Below are positions 1,617 through 10,182 of a stretch of DNA of 10,481 bases, piece by piece. The notes under the pieces are model-generated. The model was not told the DNA's origin. It searched no databases and saw only the letters and a program-made list of their open reading frames with translations. Source of the DNA: Anaerolineales bacterium (GTDB lineage: Bacteria > Chloroflexota > Anaerolineae > Anaerolineales > UBA4823); the NCBI GenBank assembly GCA_016932955.1, contig JAFGBV010000149.1, forward strand, positions 1 through 10,481, read 5' to 3'. The position numbers were made by a program, and so were the translations under genes. Within the stretch, counting starts at the first letter, position 1. Each line of letters opens with the position of its first letter.

Positions 1617-2411
1617 ATGGAATCGATACTTAGCGCTCATGCTGTTACTAAACGCTTCGGAGGCCTCGTCGCTGTCAACGCCTTTGATGTGGAGATTGCC
1701 AAGCAATCAATCTCCAGCATTATCGGTCCCAATGGCGCCGGTAAAACAACCTTTTTCAACTGCATCACCGGCTTCTATAATCCCGAAGAAGGTCAAATCA
1801 TCTTTAACAGCGAAACCATCCAGGGGTTATCGACCGACCGTGTTACCAAGCGCGGCATCTCGCGCACCTACCAGAACATTCGCCTCTTTTCCAATATGAC
1901 CGCCATCGAGAACGTCTTGGTAGGGCAGCATCCGCATCTGCACAGCAACTGGTTCGACGCTGTGTTTCGCACCCCCCGCTTCCACCGCGAGGAGAACGAC
2001 TCGCTGGAAGAAGCTCTTCGGTTACTGAAGTTCGTTGGTCTGGCTGGTATGGGAGATCAAGTCGCCCGCAACCTGCCCTATGGCGCGCAGCGTCGCCTGG
2101 AAATTGCCCGCGCCCTGGCCAGCAAACCCAGTCTGCTCCTCCTCGATGAGCCAACCGCAGGCATGAACCCCAATGAAACCACAGAGATGACCCATTTCAT
2201 TAAGAACCTGCGCGATGAGCTGGGAATCACCGTTCTGCTGATCGAACACGACATGCGCGTGGTAATGGGCATCAGCGAGCAGATCAGCGTGATGGACTTC
2301 GGCACTAAGATCGCTGAGGGCACACCCAAAGATATCCAAAGCAACCCACGCGTCATCGAGGCTTACCTGGGGCGTGGGGCGGCGGCTGGCTTTCAGCCAT
2401 CTGCAGCATAA
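1617..2411 (+). CDS. livG: Branched-chain amino-acid ABC transporter ATP-binding protein LivG
   Basis: Cytoplasmic ATPase subunit of the HAAT importer, 264 residues, close to the usual LivG length. Visible motifs in order are the Walker A GPNGAGKT at residues 37-44, the Q-loop around Q86 (SRTYQNIRLF), the LivG-style signature LPYGAQRRLEIARAL at 153-167 in place of LSGGQ, the Walker B LLLLDEP at 173-179, and the H-loop His211 in LLIEHDM. The C-terminal VIEAYLG is typical of LivG and LivF. The start ATG is set by AGGAGG 5 bases upstream. It follows livM by 9 bases and precedes livF by 15, so the three are one operon. All nucleotide-binding residues are intact. The choice of LivG over LivF rests on the LPYGxQR signature, the His in the H-loop and the length. 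Confidence 0.95.
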   Translation: MESILSAHAVTKRFGGLVAVNAFDVEIAKQSISSIIGPNGAGKTTFFNCITGFYNPEEGQIIFNSETIQGLSTDRVTKRGISRTYQNIRLFSNMTAIENVLVGQHPHLHSNWFDAVFRTPRFHREENDSLEEALRLLKFVGLAGMGDQVARNLPYGAQRRLEIARALASKPSLLLLDEPTAGMNPNETTEMTHFIKNLRDELGITVLLIEHDMRVVMGISEQISVMDFGTKIAEGTPKDIQSNPRVIEAYLGRGAAAGFQPSAA

Positions 2412-2426
2412 CCGGGAGAGATTGCT

Positions 2427-3140
2427 ATGCCAATGCTGGAAGTACACGACATTCACACCTATTATGGCAACATCCACGCCTTGAAGGGCATCTCCCTTAC
2501 CGTTGAAAAGGGCGAGATCGTCACCCTCATCGGCGCTAATGGCGCCGGTAAAACTACCATCCTCAAGACCATTGCCGGAGTTCTCAAACCGCGCCAGGGA
2601 AACGTGATCTTGGAAGGCGAGGACCTCACCCCCTTCCGCGCCCACGAAATCGTATTTAAAGGCGTCTCCATGGTTCCCGAAGGGCGCGGCGTGTTCGCCA
2701 CCCTCACCGTCATGGAAAACCTGGAAATGGGCGCTTTCATTCGCAAGGACAAAGCTGCCATCCAGCAAGATCTCGAACGGGTATTCACCCTTTTCCCCCG
2801 CCTCAAAGAGCGGCGCACCCAGGTGGCTGGCACACTCTCCGGTGGCGAGCAGCAAATGCTGGCTACCGGACGGGCCATGATGTCTCACCCGCGCCTGATC
2901 CTGATGGATGAGCCATCCATGGGTCTTGCACCTGTTCTGGTAGAGAACATCTTTGAAACCATTCTGCGGATCAACAAAGAAGGCACAACCGTCCTGCTCG
3001 TCGAGCAAAATGCCACCATGGCCCTTAGCGTTGCCAATCGTGGTTATGTCCTGCAGACAGGAGAGATCGTCCTCACTGATACTGCCTCCAACCTACGAAA
3101 TAACGAGATGGTACAGAAAGCCTATCTCGGCATCGAATAA
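2427..3140 (+). CDS. livF: Branched-chain amino-acid ABC transporter ATP-binding protein LivF
   Basis: Second ATPase subunit of the importer, 237 residues, the normal LivF size. It has Walker A GANGAGKT at 36-43, the LivF-typical VPEGRGVF at 83-90 where the Q-loop lies, the ABC signature LSGGEQQ at 137-143, Walker B LILMDEP at 157-163, and LLVEQN at 190-195. In that last motif the H-loop histidine is replaced by Gln194. This substitution is normal for LivF proteins (E. coli LivF also reads LVEQN) and should not be read as damage. The C-terminus KAYLGIE matches the family. A GGGAGA ribosome-binding sequence sits 7 bases upstream of the ATG. A hairpin about 25 bases after the stop probably ends the liv transcript. 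Confidence 0.95.
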   Translation: MPMLEVHDIHTYYGNIHALKGISLTVEKGEIVTLIGANGAGKTTILKTIAGVLKPRQGNVILEGEDLTPFRAHEIVFKGVSMVPEGRGVFATLTVMENLEMGAFIRKDKAAIQQDLERVFTLFPRLKERRTQVAGTLSGGEQQMLATGRAMMSHPRLILMDEPSMGLAPVLVENIFETILRINKEGTTVLLVEQNATMALSVANRGYVLQTGEIVLTDTASNLRNNEMVQKAYLGIE

Positions 3141-4435: not shown

Positions 4436-5578
4436 ATGCCATCTGCTGAAATCATCACCATCGGCACCGAAATTCTTCTCGGTGAAATTGTAGATACCAA
4501 CGCCCGTTATCTCGCCCGCAAGTTGCGCGATACAGGCATCGACCTGTACCGCAAAACCTCGGTGGGAGATAACGCCAGGCGCATCGCCCAGGCCATCCAG
4601 CAATCGCTGGAGCGTTGTGACATCATCATCACCACTGGTGGATTAGGCCCTACCGTTGATGACCCCACGCGCGAGGCTGTTGCCCAGGCAATTGGCGTGG
4701 AGACCGAATTCCATCCGGAGCTTTGGGAGCAAATTCAAGCCCGCTTTCGCCGTTTTGGTCGCCAGCCCACCGAGAACAACAAACGCCAGGCTTACATCCC
4801 CAAAGACTCAATCGCCCTCGAAAACCCCGTTGGCACAGCCCCCATCTTCATCGTTGAGCAGGGAGAAAAAGTAATCATCTCTCTGCCCGGCGTGCCGCGC
4901 GAAATGGAATACCTGGTCGAGCATTCCATCATTCCCTACCTGCGCCAGCGCTTTGATATTCACAGTGTCATCAAAGCCCGCGTCCTCCACACTGCCGGCA
5001 CCGGCGAATCGCAGATTGATGACCTGATCGGCGATCTGGAAGAGTTAAGCAACCCCACGGTGGGTCTCGCAGCCCATTCCGGCCAGGTGGATGTGCGCAT
5101 CACTGCCAAGGCTGACTCTGAAGAGGCTGTTGACTCCCTCATTAAGCCCATCGAGCAGACCATCCGCCAGCGCCTGGGGAATTGGGTTTATGGCGCCGAT
5201 GAGGAGACCCTGGAGGCCGTTGCCCTGGAGGCGGTGAAACGCAACGGCTGGACACTGGCTGTGGTCGAGGCTGGTCTGGGCGGCGAGCTCATCCAGCGCC
5301 TGGCTTCGGTGCCAGGGCCCTTCCTTGGCGGGCAGATGCTCACCACCCCTCCATCCCCCAACGATCTGGTCGAACTCACCGATGCCTACCGGCAGGATCG
5401 CCAGGCAGATATCGGCCTGGGCGTTGCCATCCATCCTGCAGGTGAAAAGCAAGATGTCTACCTCTCCCTCATCACGCCCGAAGCAAGACTCCAATTCACC
5501 CGTCCCTATGGCGGTCCGCCTGAGTATGCCCCCCGCTGGGCATTGCACCACAGCCTGGATGTGATCCGTAAGCTCTAG
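4436..5578 (+). CDS. cinA: CinA-family protein (COG1058 domain) with degenerate C-terminal PncC-like domain
   Basis: Canonical CinA has an N-terminal MoaB/MogA-like domain linked to ADP-ribose pyrophosphatase activity and a C-terminal nicotinamide-nucleotide amidase (PncC) domain. Here the first part is well kept: EIITIGTEILLGEIVDTNAR at 5-24, TTGGLGPTVDD at 66-76, ENPVGTAP at 129-136, PGVPREME at 151-158, and the middle domain GESQIDD (190-196) with AAHSGQVDVRITA (212-224). From about residue 255 the PncC region is eroded. The family motif ESCTGG reads EAGLGG at 278-283, the usual YSNEAK region is replaced by Pro-rich sequence near 304-309, and the GIAGPGGG loop is reduced to AIHPAGEK at 331-338. 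At 380 residues it is shorter than the usual 410-430. The start is supported by AAGGAG at 4426-4431. It probably cannot deamidate NMN; the N-terminal activity may remain. Confidence 0.88.
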   Translation: MPSAEIITIGTEILLGEIVDTNARYLARKLRDTGIDLYRKTSVGDNARRIAQAIQQSLERCDIIITTGGLGPTVDDPTREAVAQAIGVETEFHPELWEQIQARFRRFGRQPTENNKRQAYIPKDSIALENPVGTAPIFIVEQGEKVIISLPGVPREMEYLVEHSIIPYLRQRFDIHSVIKARVLHTAGTGESQIDDLIGDLEELSNPTVGLAAHSGQVDVRITAKADSEEAVDSLIKPIEQTIRQRLGNWVYGADEETLEAVALEAVKRNGWTLAVVEAGLGGELIQRLASVPGPFLGGQMLTTPPSPNDLVELTDAYRQDRQADIGLGVAIHPAGEKQDVYLSLITPEARLQFTRPYGGPPEYAPRWALHHSLDVIRKL

Positions 5579-5650: not shown

Positions 5651-7630
5651 ATGATGAAAGCCGATCTACTCCTCACCAATGCAATCGTTCTGACCATGGA
5701 TGATCAGATGAGCATCTACGAACCGGGCGCAGTTGCCTTGCAAGGCAACCAGATCGTTGCTGTTGGCCTCGAATCAGAGATCATCCCTGCCTTCCCTGAT
5801 GTCCCAATAACGGATTGCGGGGAAAAAGTACTGATGCCTGGCATGATCAATACCCACACCCACGTGCCAATGACCCTCCTGCGCGGGCTTGCCGATGACT
5901 TGCGCCTCGATGTGTGGCTGATGGGGTATATGATGCCCGTCGAGCGCGAGTTCGTCTCTCCCGATTTCGTCCGCCTGGGCACGCAAATTGCCTGCGCCGA
6001 GCTGATTCGCTCTGGCGTGACCTGCTTTGCCGATATGTACTACTTCGAAGAAAGCATCGCCCAGGCTACAGCCGAAGCCGGCATGCGCGCCGTGTGTGGG
6101 CAAACAGTGCTCAAGTTCCCCGCACCCGACGCACGTTATTTTGAAGAATCGCTTGCGCTCGCCCGCCAGTTCATCCAACGCTGGAAAAATCACCCGCTCA
6201 TCATACCTTCCGTGGCGCCCCATGCGCCTTATACCTGCACCCAGGAAATCCTCCAGTCCACCGCTGCGCTGGCAGTTGAGTTCGATGTTCCTCTTCAGAT
6301 CCATATCTCCGAGACCGCTCAAGAAGTAGAAAACAGCCGCGATGAACATGGCATGCCCGTTGTGCCTTATGTCAAAAAACAGAATGTCTTTGATGCGCGC
6401 GTCATCGCTGCGCATTGCGTTCATATCGACGATGGTGAAATCCTGACCCTCAAACATCACCATGTGGGGGTTGCGCATAACCCATCCTCAAACCTGAAGC
6501 TGGCTTCGGGATTCGCTCCCATCGCAGACATGCTCAAAGCCGGTCTGAACGTGGGCATCGGCACGGATGGACCGGCTTCCAACAATGATCTCGACATGTT
6601 TGAAGAGATGCGCCTCGCCGCATTCCTGGCAAAAGTCACCACCAATGATCCAACCACCCTCCCCGCGCCAATGGCCTTGCGCATGGCGACAAGCATGGGC
6701 GCAAAAGCATTGCACATTGATCATCTCACTGGTTCAATCGAGCCAGGCAAGCGCGCCGATTTGGTTTTGGTGGATATCAGCTCCGTGCACAACACCCCCC
6801 GCTTCCACCGTGAGCCAGAAGGCATTTACGCGCAACTTGTCTATGCGGGTCACGCCACAGATGTGAATGATGTGATGGTCGATGGGCGCTGGTTGATGCG
6901 CGACCGCCAACTGCTCACTCTGGATGAGGCCGAGATGGCTGCACAGACAGCCGATTATGCTCGCCGCATCGATGCCTTCCTCATCGAACGCGAGCAGTCC
7001 ATCCTCTCCAAATTGATCGCCATTGGCGGGGCGACCGAAGGAGAATCCTTCGAGGTTCAGGTCAAGATCCGCCTGACCGATGCAAAGCCCATCCTACAGT
7101 CCATCCAGCAGCCTGGCATCGATCTCCTTTACCATCGCCATTACCACGAGTACGATACCTATTTCTCCTTTTCCGATCCCAAGCAAGGCTATCTGCGCTA
7201 TCGAGAGGACGAATTTGTAGATGCCAACGACCAAGTCACCAACGTGCGCTATCGTCTCACCCTCATCGGCCCCGTCCGTGAGGGCGCCTTCCCCAGTGAT
7301 GTATTGCTCTCCCGCAGCCGCTTTATCGCCCCGGCTACCCACAGCCTGCGTTTCTACCGCGAATATTTCAAACCATCGCAGGAGACAATCGTTCAAAAGG
7401 ATCGCCTGCGCTGGAGAGTGCTGTTTCAGGGCACCGAATTTTATATCAACCTGGATCAGGTCCTGGACCCCCCTCTCGGATACTTTCTGGAAGTCAAAAG
7501 CCGCACCTGGAGTCGCCGCGATGCCGAGCACAAAGCTCTGGTTGCCCAAGAGCTGATTCGTTTTTTGGGGGCTTCGCCAGAAAAAGCCGAAGTGCGCGAC
7601 TATGTGGAAATCGTTGAGGCCTCCGCATGA
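5651..7630 (+). CDS. MTA/SAH-deaminase-like amidohydrolase fused to a C-terminal CYTH-like domain
   Basis: 659 residues, against about 430-450 for ordinary MtaD-type deaminases. Residues 1 to about 420 are a metal-dependent amidohydrolase: NTHTH at 67-71 (His69, His71), Glu98 in MPVERE, PHAPYT (His191), IHISE (His218, Glu221), AAHCVH (His255) and GTDGPAS (Asp306), then GSIEPGKRADLVLVD near 361-375. By analogy with Thermotoga MtaD, His69, His71, His218 and Asp306 would bind metal and Glu221 and His255 act in deamination, so the likely chemistry is deamination of 5'-methylthioadenosine, S-adenosylhomocysteine or a related adenosine. A linker of about 40 residues leads to a CYTH-like domain (about 465-645): EVQVKIRL (468-475), EYDTYFSF (500-507), LRYRED (515-520), YRLTLIGP (534-541), QKDRLRW (582-588), NLDQV (600-604) and GYFLEVK (610-616). 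AAGGAA at 5636 favours the first of two tandem ATGs. The fused partner and its altered motifs are unusual. Confidence 0.87.
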   Translation: MMKADLLLTNAIVLTMDDQMSIYEPGAVALQGNQIVAVGLESEIIPAFPDVPITDCGEKVLMPGMINTHTHVPMTLLRGLADDLRLDVWLMGYMMPVEREFVSPDFVRLGTQIACAELIRSGVTCFADMYYFEESIAQATAEAGMRAVCGQTVLKFPAPDARYFEESLALARQFIQRWKNHPLIIPSVAPHAPYTCTQEILQSTAALAVEFDVPLQIHISETAQEVENSRDEHGMPVVPYVKKQNVFDARVIAAHCVHIDDGEILTLKHHHVGVAHNPSSNLKLASGFAPIADMLKAGLNVGIGTDGPASNNDLDMFEEMRLAAFLAKVTTNDPTTLPAPMALRMATSMGAKALHIDHLTGSIEPGKRADLVLVDISSVHNTPRFHREPEGIYAQLVYAGHATDVNDVMVDGRWLMRDRQLLTLDEAEMAAQTADYARRIDAFLIEREQSILSKLIAIGGATEGESFEVQVKIRLTDAKPILQSIQQPGIDLLYHRHYHEYDTYFSFSDPKQGYLRYREDEFVDANDQVTNVRYRLTLIGPVREGAFPSDVLLSRSRFIAPATHSLRFYREYFKPSQETIVQKDRLRWRVLFQGTEFYINLDQVLDPPLGYFLEVKSRTWSRRDAEHKALVAQELIRFLGASPEKAEVRDYVEIVEASA

Positions 7631-8826
7631 GTTCCCAAGCCACGCAGCTCGACACAAACCAAATCCGCGAAAATGATTTCCAGGTCGCACCTGTCGCCAC
7701 CATCACGGCCGGACATTTCGTTCATGATATCTACTCGGCTTTCCTGGCGCCCCTCCTCCCGCAGATCATCGAAAAGCTGTCCCTCAGCCTCACGCAGGCC
7801 GGCTCACTCCCAGCCATCATGCAGTTGCCCTCCCTGCTCAACCCTTTCATCGGCTACCTGGACGATAAGATAAACCTGCGCATTCTGGTCATCCTGGCGC
7901 CAGCGATCACTGCAACCACAATGAGCGCTATCGGTCTGGCGCCAAATTACCTCTCCCTGATCTTGTTGCTCATCGTCACTGGCTTGAGTATCGCCGCCTT
8001 CCATTCTCCCAGCCCGGCAATGGTAGCGCGCGTTTCGGGTCGCCAGGTCGGCAAAGGGATGAGCTTCTACATGGCTGCTGGCGAGTTAGGCCGCACCCTT
8101 GGACCTCTGGTCGCCGTTTGGGGCGTCTCCACCTTCGGATTACAAGGCATCTATCGCCTTGCTGTGATCGGCTGGGCCTCATCGCTGGTGATTTTCCTGC
8201 GCTTCCGCGGTATCCAAATCCACACCAGCCGCAGCACTGGCTTTCGTGCCATCTTCCTGGAATCCTGGAAGCTATTCCTCCTCCTCGCTGCGCTTACCCT
8301 CGCCAGGAACTTCCTCACCGTTTCTTTAGGCATATACATGCCCACCTTGCTTGCCAGCGAAGGCGCAAGCCTGGTCGCCGCTGGCGGCGCCCTCGCCTGG
8401 TATCAACTGGCTGGCGTCGGCGGGGCATTCTTGGGCGGCACACTCAGCGACCGTATCGGTCGCAGAGCTGTCTTGCTCTTTACCCTGCTCATTTCACCTT
8501 TATTGGCATTGCTCTTCTTGCAGGTAGAAGGCTGGGTGATGGCGCTTGTTCTCCTTTTCCTCGGATTGCTCTCCCTATCCCCCCAGCCCGTCCTCCTCGC
8601 CTTCGTTCAGGATCAATTCCCCCGCCACCGCTCCGCAGCCAACGGCATCTACATGGCTTTATCATTCATCATGATGTCTATCACCTCCCTCACCATCGGC
8701 ATCCTTGGTGATGTTATTGGCCTCCGCAGCGCATTCGTCTGGTCAGCGCTCATCAGCCTCCTGGCTGCCCCCCTGGCTCTGGCCCTTCCCATGCCTTCCC
8801 ATCCAACCAACACCCTGTCAGATTGA
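7627..8826 (+). CDS. MFS transporter, Fsr (fosmidomycin-resistance)-like
   Basis: Inner-membrane transporter of 399 residues with about 12 hydrophobic segments split by a central cytoplasmic loop near 190-212. Resemblance to the Fsr branch of the major facilitator superfamily comes from the early GHFVHDIYSAFLAPLLP (29-45), SIAAFHSPSPAMVAR (121-135) and GKGMSFYMAAGELGRTLGP (142-160). The loop between helices 8 and 9 carries a clear MFS motif A, GTLSDRIGRR at 271-280; the loop 2-3 version is degenerate (GYLDDKINLR, 76-85). Its ATG overlaps the amidohydrolase stop as ATGA, so translation is almost certainly coupled. A short charged N-terminal tail precedes the first helix. Fsr-like proteins are annotated as drug or metabolite exporters; the substrate here is unknown. 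Pairing with the deaminase suggests export or uptake of a purine-related compound, which is inference. Confidence 0.88.
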   Translation: MSSQATQLDTNQIRENDFQVAPVATITAGHFVHDIYSAFLAPLLPQIIEKLSLSLTQAGSLPAIMQLPSLLNPFIGYLDDKINLRILVILAPAITATTMSAIGLAPNYLSLILLLIVTGLSIAAFHSPSPAMVARVSGRQVGKGMSFYMAAGELGRTLGPLVAVWGVSTFGLQGIYRLAVIGWASSLVIFLRFRGIQIHTSRSTGFRAIFLESWKLFLLLAALTLARNFLTVSLGIYMPTLLASEGASLVAAGGALAWYQLAGVGGAFLGGTLSDRIGRRAVLLFTLLISPLLALLFLQVEGWVMALVLLFLGLLSLSPQPVLLAFVQDQFPRHRSAANGIYMALSFIMMSITSLTIGILGDVIGLRSAFVWSALISLLAAPLALALPMPSHPTNTLSD

Positions 8827-8854: not shown

Positions 8855-9667
8855 GTGACAACCCATCTCGAATTTACCTCCAAGCTCGCCCTCCAGGCCG
8901 GTAACCTGCTCCTAGAGCATTTCCAGCGCGCCGATCTTGCAATTTCCCGCAAAGCAGATCAATCAATTGTCACCCAGGCAGACCTGGCCTCAGATCGCCT
9001 GATCGCTGAGGCCATCCACCGCGAGTATCCCCAGGATTTCATCCTCAGCGAAGAACTGCAAACCAGCCTGGCTCAAGATGCCTCCGTCATATGGATCGTC
9101 GATCCATTGGATGGAACGACCAATTACACCCTGGGTTTGCATGTTTGGGGCGTCTCGATTGCCCGCCTCATCGACCATCGCCCTCAGCTAGCCATCATCT
9201 ACTTCCCCCTCTTGGATGAGCTTTACACCGCCGAATTGGGACGCGGCGCTTTCCTCAATGGCAAACCGATCCATGTTCGCCCTCCCCATCCCGATCACCC
9301 ACTCCCCTTTTTTGCCTGTTGCTCGCGCGCCCACAGGCGATACCAGATCCAAATCCCTTATAAATACCGTATCCTCGGTTCATCGGCTTATACATACTGC
9401 ATGGTCGCTCGCGGTACGGCCATCCTCGGATTTGAGGTTACCCCAAAAATTTGGGACCTGGCTGCCGCCTGGCTGATCGTTGAAGAAGCCGGTGGGTTCA
9501 TCGAGCCATTCAGCGGCTCCTCCCCGTTCCCCATCCAGCAAGGTCACGAGTACGTCCACCAATCCTTCACCTGCCTGGCAGCTGCATCTCAGGAGTTACT
9601 TGCCGAAGCGCATGAAAAAATCCAATTAAAACAAGCCTCTCCTCTTGCCCCTCCACCTGAGGCATGA
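8855..9667 (+). CDS. Inositol monophosphatase family protein
   Basis: Predicted Mg2+-dependent phosphatase of 270 residues from a GTG start. The family covers inositol-1-phosphatase (SuhB), fructose-1,6-bisphosphatase and 3'-phosphoadenosine 5'-phosphate phosphatase (CysQ). Visible motifs are SEE at 65-67, WIVDPLDGTTNY at 80-91 with metal-binding Asp83 and Asp86, and KIWDLAAAWLIVEEAGG at 198-214 with Asp201. The region between is a little divergent, with RGAFLNGKPI at 130-139 being typical. The open frame extends upstream to 8705, but that part lies inside the MFS gene, has non-family composition, and the IMPase fold begins at about THLEFTSKLALQAG. GTG 8855 gives the usual length. No good Shine-Dalgarno precedes it, so translation may depend on ribosomes finishing the MFS gene 28 bases upstream. 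The substrate cannot be decided. Confidence 0.87.
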   Translation: MTTHLEFTSKLALQAGNLLLEHFQRADLAISRKADQSIVTQADLASDRLIAEAIHREYPQDFILSEELQTSLAQDASVIWIVDPLDGTTNYTLGLHVWGVSIARLIDHRPQLAIIYFPLLDELYTAELGRGAFLNGKPIHVRPPHPDHPLPFFACCSRAHRRYQIQIPYKYRILGSSAYTYCMVARGTAILGFEVTPKIWDLAAAWLIVEEAGGFIEPFSGSSPFPIQQGHEYVHQSFTCLAAASQELLAEAHEKIQLKQASPLAPPPEA

Positions 9668-9681
9668 TACGATATATCGGT

Positions 9682-9687
9682 AAGGAG
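9682..9687 (+). promoter_or_regulatory. Shine-Dalgarno that fixes the start of the cNMP-binding gene
   Basis: AAGGAG lies 9 bases before the ATG at 9697. The same frame also has an ATG at 9664 that overlaps the phosphatase stop, but that codon has no ribosome-binding sequence and would place this one inside the coding region. The downstream start is preferred. Confidence 0.65.
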
Positions 9688-9696
9688 ACAGAGCTG

Positions 9697-10182
9697 ATGA
9701 GCAGCGCTGATATTTTATTAGATGTGGACATTTTTGCAGATCTGAACCAGGCACAATTGGAGCGGATCTACACCATCTGTACCCCAGAGCATTACCATCA
9801 AGGCGACATGATTTTCGACGAAAACTCGCCCAGCAAAGAAATATACATCATTCTGGAAGGCACTGTTCATATCCTGGTCAACCCAGATCCTTTCCACCGC
9901 GAAGGCCAGGAACCCCATTGCATCTCTCGTCTCTCACATGGTCAATGCTTTGGCGAGGTTGCCCTTGTCGACCAGGGATTGCGTTCCGCTGCTGCACAAT
10001 GTGGCAGCCCGACCTGCAAACTGCTGGTTATCGATCGAGATCACTTTCTGGACTTACTGCGCTCCGACCTGGACATGGGCTTCACCATTCTTTATAACCT
10101 TGCTACTGACCTATGCCTGAAAATCCGCCGCACAACCTTTGTGGTGCGTGAGAATCTCCTCTACGGAAAAGCAAGAGGATAA
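9697..10182 (+). CDS. Stand-alone cyclic-nucleotide-binding domain protein
   Basis: A 161-residue cytoplasmic protein consisting almost entirely of one CRP-type cyclic-nucleotide-binding domain. The beta-roll hallmarks are QGDMIFDENSPSKEIYIILE at 35-54 and EGTVHILV at 54-61. The phosphate-binding cassette reads FGEVALVDQGLRSAAA at 85-100, with Glu87 and Arg96 at the positions that contact ribose and cyclic phosphate in cAMP-binding members. A final helix at about 114-146 follows. There is no C-terminal helix-turn-helix, kinase or channel part, so it would act as a ligand-binding subunit or bind a partner rather than DNA. The start at 9697 is chosen from the AAGGAG upstream. It lies 29 bases after the phosphatase and 29 before the aldo/keto reductase. 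Whether it binds cAMP, cGMP or no nucleotide is not shown. Confidence 0.85.
   Translation: MSSADILLDVDIFADLNQAQLERIYTICTPEHYHQGDMIFDENSPSKEIYIILEGTVHILVNPDPFHREGQEPHCISRLSHGQCFGEVALVDQGLRSAAAQCGSPTCKLLVIDRDHFLDLLRSDLDMGFTILYNLATDLCLKIRRTTFVVRENLLYGKARG

Follow-up and report, generated by a model that had tools for sequence, protein, structure and literature searches.

What would a phosphate-binding tunnel be doing at the end of a nucleoside deaminase? The question is raised by a gene in a 10,481-nucleotide contig of an Anaerolineales bacterium (GenBank assembly GCA_016932955.1, contig JAFGBV010000149.1), the whole of which we call the window. At 5651..7630 on the + strand, where the features described below lie unless stated otherwise, a single frame of 659 amino acids joins an amidohydrolase of the type that deaminates methylthioadenosine (MTA), S-adenosylhomocysteine (SAH) or adenosine to a C-terminal CYTH domain with the triphosphate tunnel metalloenzyme (TTM) fold. 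This architecture is real and widespread, its TTM domain is altered at the metal site, and it is apparently undescribed. With about even confidence we read the protein as a nucleoside deaminase carrying a pseudo-TTM, that is, a repurposed, metal-independent regulatory barrel that binds a triphosphate or another anion. Annotation calls CYTH proteins cyclases or triphosphatases, and what they do in the cell is still largely unsettled (PMC8233210). A common and strictly conserved fusion offers a direct test of TTM folds as bacterial sensors, as well as a test of how salvage of S-adenosylmethionine (SAM) by-products is controlled in Chloroflexota. Automatic annotation usually calls the protein an MTA/SAH deaminase or an amidohydrolase and so conceals the second domain.

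Domain architecture of the fused protein

A first-pass annotation of the window had described one uninterrupted 659-codon frame encoding an amidohydrolase followed by a CYTH-like domain. The frame is borne out, and the domain assignment holds by Pfam and by predicted fold. The deaminase domain (residues 1-440; 5651..6970) is supported by Amidohydro_1, which matches residues 60-414 with E 1.7e-73 in a Pfam scan of the window protein, by NCBIfam and by structure superposition. The top NCBIfam models are of the deaminase/TRZ-ATZ hydrolase type, the best being PRK09045 with 467.9 bits against a cut-off of 540. None of the 25 families listed out of 52 reaches its curated cut-off, and because every listed score falls below it we place the domain in this group without naming it an equivalog. 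The six first structural matches of the full-length model (4f0s, 4f0r, 3lnp, 4gbd, 4dzh and 4dyk) superpose on it with TM(target) 0.95-0.97 and share 38-40% identity; five carry the title adenosine deaminase or a homolog thereof, 3lnp amidohydrolase only, and 4gbd, at TM(target) 0.97, has methylthio-coformycin bound.

The metal and catalytic residues proposed from the first reading, namely the metal ligands His69-x-His71 (5855..5863), His191 (6221..6223), His218-x-x-Glu221 (6302..6313), His255 (6413..6415) and Asp306 (6566..6568), are all present, and each of the seven is identical in 111/111 aligned proteins. This alignment of full-length sequences comprises 77 of the 81 frames from the window and loci L001-L080, four cut frames being left out, and 34 of 36 divergent frames, from which two cut ones were removed. 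The N-terminal domain thus has the pattern of the superfamily, an Amidohydro_1 barrel with HxH, His, HxxE, His and Asp. The enzymes from Pseudomonas aeruginosa (4gbd, 4dyk), Chromobacterium (4f0r) and Xanthomonas (4dzh) share the fold and these residues, with 38-40% identity over about 440 columns, as does TM0936 with 32% identity; DadD of Methanocaldococcus jannaschii belongs to the same deaminase group by its description (PMC10978960). From kinship with these deaminases we infer MTA, SAH, 5'-deoxyadenosine or adenosine as the class of substrate. The solved MTA/SAH/adenosine deaminases consist of about 400-470 residues and lack a CYTH domain, whereas the fusion adds a TTM domain of 200 residues.

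For the C-terminal domain (residues 465-659; 7043..7627) the predicted fold is the eight-stranded tunnel barrel of the TTM family, so that the check on which the first-pass annotation had staked its CYTH assignment, a barrel rather than some other fold, came out in its favour. The accompanying profile check against CYTH (PF01928) did so only in part: there is a match with E 0.0012, but its 19.2 bits lie below the gathering cut-off of 23.2, which two fused relatives pass with 31.1 and 28 bits. Searches of the PDB with the domain sequence, as single query and as profile, found nothing up to E 10, and solved relatives were reached only by fold search. The nearest folds among the structural matches listed include class IV cyclases, and Mediator Med18/Med20 also appears. 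Between the two domains lies a helical linker (residues 426-459, with helices 426-448 and 451-459; 6926..7027). The full-length AlphaFold2 model, built on 51 sequences, has pLDDT 91.6 and pTM 0.86, and the linker region, in ten-residue blocks from residue 421, has pLDDT 95, 95, 89 and 81; the pTM suggests a defined arrangement of deaminase and CYTH domains in the model.

Conserved and replaced residues of the tunnel

The best reference for the tunnel is SaTTM, in which E7 and E135 hold metal 1, while in the two-calcium state E5, E7 and E137 coordinate and E137 serves metal 2; R56, R58, K69, K110 and R112 bind triphosphate, D38 and Y40 position a water, and Y168 of the plug helix contacts F133 (PMC8233210). 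SaTTM was not part of our sequence alignments, and the equivalences follow motif order and, at the N-terminus, the structural register: E5=E468, E7=Q470, K9=K472, D38/Y40=D502/Y504, R56/R58=R516/R518, K110/R112=K583/R585, E135=E614, E137=K616, F133=F612 (Phe or Tyr) and Y168=Y651. As to the register, the structural alignment with SaTTM 7ns8 starts at model residue 15 with residue 6, placing E468/Q470/K472 on SaTTM 5/7/9, and that with the class IV cyclase 3n0z starts at model residue 10 with residue 6, placing them on 10/12/14, both if gapless at the start.

Seen in this way, the two sides of the tunnel have had different fates. Invariant in 111/111 proteins are E468, Q470, K472, D502, Y504, R516, R518, R557, R567, K583, R585, R587, D602, E614, K616, R618 and Y651. 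The phosphate-binding motifs RxR (R516-x-R518; 7196..7204) and KxR (K583-x-R585; 7397..7405) are kept, as is DxY (D502-x-Y504; 7154..7162), the beta-water motif (role from PMC8233210), and Y651 (7601..7603), in the C-terminal plug helix 651-658, may by its position correspond to SaTTM Y168. Of the four glutamates of the metal site, however, two have been exchanged, which the first-pass annotation had missed. The ExExK signature has become ExQxK (E468-V-Q470-V-K472; 7052..7066), and Gln470 is found in 111/111 aligned proteins, in 240/240 database matches from searches one and two, that of the window among them, and in 120/120 of a third set of database matches. The ExE of strand 8 has become ExK (E614-V-K616; 7490..7498), with Lys616 in 111/111, 240/240 and 119/120, the last set having one Met. 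Of the features that characterise catalytic TTM proteins, RxR, KxR and DxY are hence present, and ExExK, the strand-8 ExE and a basic residue like K69 are absent. From SaTTM and the archaeal CYTH proteins of cluster 3 in the sequence similarity network of PMC8233210 the fusion therefore differs by E7 to Gln, E137 to Lys, the loss of Lys69 and its position behind a deaminase.

Stand-alone CYTH proteins from the same genomes provide an internal comparison. Eleven loci were taken from ten fusion-bearing genomes, and ten of them, one per genome, passed a filter for ExExK and RxR. These ten align RxR over R516-x-R518, Lys over residue 539, Arg over R585 and, in 7/10, Lys over K583. All ten place ExE over E614-x-K616 with both aligners, and ExE was not a selection criterion; ExK in its place was seen in none of the eleven stand-alone loci. 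MAFFT and profile-profile hhalign (Prob 87.6, E 3.5e-6) agree on the N-terminal register, residue 539, K583/R585 and the C-terminal register. A further basic pair, R555-x-R557 (7313..7321), lies in or near the strand where the stand-alone CYTH proteins have an acidic ExE (R557 in 111/111 and R555 in 110/111 aligned proteins, each in 119/120 of the third set). Since MAFFT and hhalign differ here by two residues and the register is uncertain, this charge flip in beta-5, from ExE to RxR, is only tentative.

Distribution of the fusion in Chloroflexota

The fusion is not a peculiarity of one contig. Of 8000 candidates scored in a search with residues 440-659, 7572 reached E<=0.001, and PF01979 was present on all 120 matches listed. 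When a single genome of each species was scanned, 410 stretches bore the pattern and 372 of them encode a relative; the best 80 of these 372 confirmed stretches form our locus set, and their titles name Chloroflexota or Chloroflexi, its classes or orders (Anaerolineales, Anaerolineae), or genera of this phylum. Database names from a second search, for which the member of genome G123 served as query, include Oscillochloris, Chloroploca, Viridilinea and Roseiflexaceae. The fused frame is single and longer than 600 aa in 76 of the 80 fetched loci, while the other four (L033, L060, L072, L073) start at the locus edge. In a sample of the phylum, 89 of 400 genomes carry the fusion, nearly all matches lying in open frames of at least 650 aa, with one match in 88 of the 89 genomes and two in one (G308). 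These counts refute an artefact of gene calling or assembly that joins two genes. At class level the fusion occurs in 115 of 199 sampled genomes of the class of G001, taken as Anaerolineae, and in 30 of 61 of the class of G123, taken as Chloroflexia; the three genome samples overlap and include the centre genomes, and the counts are lower bounds.

Both parts appear to have travelled together. When the N-terminal domain was used as query against 40 genomes, 20 with and 20 without the fusion (E<=1e-40), the fused frame was the best match in 20/20 fusion genomes (50-75% identity), all other matches had at most 41% identity and lay in frames of 433-550 aa, 14 of the 20 fusion-less genomes gave no match, and no unfused orthologue was found. 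Distances of the N- and C-terminal domains correlate with r 0.90 over 111 proteins (0/500 permutations as high, phylogeny uncorrected), as expected if both parts are inherited together. A search for stand-alone copies of the C-terminal domain with a length-restricted profile gave 1481 of 3695 candidates at E<=0.001, and among the 120 listed many are named MTA/SAH deaminase or carry PF01979, often on short contigs. These are probably truncated fusions, although stand-alone copies may be among the candidates.

A possible metal-independent sensor

Because the phosphate-binding side of the tunnel is mostly kept but metal ligands are swapped, a tunnel that only binds is predicted. According to the reading that we favour, the barrel retains most of the basic, phosphate-gripping side and has lost its metal site (SaTTM Glu7 to Gln470, Glu137 to Lys616). 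It would then most likely bind a triphosphate-like anion, such as ATP or another nucleoside triphosphate (NTP), tripolyphosphate or short polyphosphate, without Mg and without hydrolysis. Binding would in this way gate the deaminase; the tunnel could close or open and the signal be passed via the helical linker 426-459, so that the irreversible removal of adenine groups from by-products of SAM would be tied to the energy or phosphate state of the cell. We put forward more tentatively, as a possibility and not as an expectation, a metal-free sensor family across Chloroflexota in which the Gln/Lys charge replaces Mg and bound triphosphate allosterically switches the deaminase, linking salvage of SAM by-products to the NTP or polyphosphate level. 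The first-pass annotation had imagined a deaminase gated by, or channelling from, a nucleotide or polyphosphate site. Gating survives and is favoured, whereas channelling, like any catalytic role of the CYTH domain, is disfavoured by the second Glu of ExExK being Gln and that of ExE being Lys in 111/111 proteins.

Several observations weigh against a metal-less sensor. Two of the four metal-site acids, E468 and E614, are still present. Residue 539, at the position of SaTTM Lys69, is I, L, V, M, T or S; with no counterpart of this basic residue, the grip on phosphate may be weaker or different. As to the register, the structural rows of 7ns9 and 7nsf begin one residue off and need a gap to fit, and the junction between the domains (residues 461-470) has a pLDDT of 69 in the full-length model, so that a fixed domain arrangement is not sure. 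That the ten stand-alone CYTH proteins align ExExK over E468-x-Q470-x-K472 is due to selection, since the filter demanded ExExK. The eleventh locus (L154:1417-2013, + strand, genome G005) encodes a stand-alone CYTH-like frame that matches the profile built from these ten proteins with E 5.7e-6 and in which EIKAR replaces ExExK and the ExE further on is retained; the fusion is thus not alone in having its second Glu changed. Moreover, AtTTM1 and AtTTM2 still hydrolyse pyrophosphate without ExExK and ExE (PMC8233210), and motif loss is thus no proof of lost catalysis. Finally, the CinA- and CoaE-type neighbours described below are nucleotide-cofactor genes and do not identify the ligand.

Alternative explanations

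Could the barrel instead be a mere scaffold? As a structural or assembly domain it would no longer bind small anions and would serve subunit contacts or the positioning of the deaminase, and Mediator Med18 and Med20 indeed use the TTM fold without catalysis. Were the role purely structural, one would not expect K472, DxY, RxR, KxR and the plug tyrosine to be kept in 111/111 proteins, and we regard this reading as unlikely. The invariance of most phosphate-binding residues, as well as the pyrophosphatase activity of AtTTM1/2, would agree with a bifunctional enzyme, whose CYTH domain would be an active phosphohydrolase of changed chemistry, with Lys616 standing in for metal 2 or with pyrophosphate as substrate, coupled to deamination. 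Yet 111/111 proteins have Gln in place of E7, the ligand of both metals in SaTTM, and Lys in place of the second Glu of ExE, and each of the ten fusion genomes tested holds a stand-alone ExExK CYTH protein that could supply hydrolase activity, which makes a second active site rather improbable. The many invariant basic residues could also form a tunnel that holds on to polyphosphate and so anchors the deaminase to granules, given that the TTM domains of VTC bind polyphosphate and other anions (PMC9911596). PPK1 is present in only 14/20 fusion genomes, against 6/20 without the fusion, in a search confined to PPK1 (PPK2 was not searched) of genomes that may be incomplete; chains made by PPK1 are therefore unlikely to be obligatory, and we give such an anchor little chance.

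The nearest folds could point in yet another direction, to a class IV adenylyl cyclase fused to the deaminase, and synthesis of cAMP had indeed been mentioned in the first-pass annotation. The signature of these cyclases, HFxxxxExExK with a small residue at the first Arg of RxR, is lacking from the fusion: ahead of ExQxK the window protein has Thr-Glu at residues 462-463 and no HF, the metal site is changed, and the first Arg of RxR is kept in 111/111, whereas class IV cyclases replace that Arg (PMC8233210). The cyclase is accordingly rejected on its motifs, and cAMP synthesis is disfavoured by the missing HF together with the Gln/Lys replacements. As to the W/YxRxR motif of thiamine triphosphatases, with its conserved aromatic residue, the window protein has Tyr514, but Tyr occurs at this position in only 50% of 107 close relatives, and ExE is changed too.

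Relation to known systems

Among the systems to which the fusion can be likened, AtTTM1/TTM2, as described in PMC8233210, also join a TTM domain whose metal motifs are changed to a different enzyme domain, but their partner is of the phosphoribulokinase type and they belong to plants and amoebae. YgiF-type CYTH-CHAD proteins share a bacterial multidomain CYTH architecture (PMC8233210), with the difference that CYTH is N-terminal there and its partner is CHAD. Med18/Med20 have the TTM fold in common with the fusion and belong to a eukaryotic transcription complex; they are not known to have a conserved phosphate tunnel. YgiF-type proteins are known inorganic triphosphatases. The ten largest clusters of the PF01928 similarity network are reported to include multidomain proteins whose partner is CHAD or a phosphoribulokinase domain (PMC8233210).

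That the pairing was undescribed, as initially suspected, is supported as far as the open-licence literature goes, in which CYTH and amidohydrolase were not found together. Nor was CYTH found there together with Chloroflexus; all this is weak evidence, as published work on such deaminases was missed too. Through automatic annotation, some members already stand in public databases with both Pfam domains, and NCBI names one of them "CYTH domain-containing protein".

Genomic context

In the window the fusion lies within a run of genes on the same strand: liv ABC transport genes, a DAO-family oxidoreductase, a CinA-like gene, the fusion, an MFS transporter, an inositol-phosphatase-like gene and a small protein with a cNMP-binding domain. 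The liv genes were named by eye and by clusters, and cluster names derive from a Pfam scan of one member each. The CinA-like gene directly upstream (4436..5578; MoCF_biosynth and CinA_KH) is a conserved neighbour. By BLAST clusters, with the window included, it is found at most two open reading frames (ORFs) upstream in 56 of the 75 loci that have an upstream ORF, and somewhere in 60/80 loci (window included, L080 left out), compared with 38/80 for the inositol-phosphatase-like gene. Its C-terminal deamidase part has no Pfam match in the window gene. The AESxTGG-type motif, typical of CinA deamidases, is absent in 60/60 cluster members, and the C-terminus looks degenerate. Of the 36 divergent loci, 13 have a gene of the CoaE type (dephospho-CoA kinase; one member scanned), which lies directly downstream of the fusion and on the same strand in 11 of the rows listed (L119-L121, L123-L127, L129, L130 and L146).

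Genes for the steps around the deaminase are nearly universal. PF05221 (SAH hydrolase) is present in 38/40 genomes, including all 20 with the fusion, and PF01048, the family of purine nucleoside phosphorylases (PNP), MTA phosphorylases (MTAP) and MTA/SAH nucleosidases (MTAN), in 40/40; deaminated products could therefore be processed. The idea that the fusion answers a missing SAH hydrolase was rejected on the same PF05221 counts. A route through SAH deaminase and S-inosylhomocysteine (SIH) is described for Methanocaldococcus and Thermotoga (PMC10978960).

In fusion-less genomes, unfused deaminase relatives adjoin a PNP/MTAP-family gene (G021 C14:31036-33154 and G024 C2:62075-64219), an arrangement as expected for salvage by deamination followed by phosphorolysis. 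Genome G024 (2.7 Mb) has 23 amidohydrolase and 11 PNP-family matches, an unusual expansion. Long antisense frames run over the C-terminal domain of the fusion (7094-7690, - strand) and over two ABC ATPase genes (2022-3008, - strand) and are probably shadows of codon bias. The small protein at the end of the run (9664-10182, + strand) is a single-domain cyclic-nucleotide-binding protein of 172 residues (PF00027), whose gene overlaps the inositol-phosphatase-like gene by a few bases.
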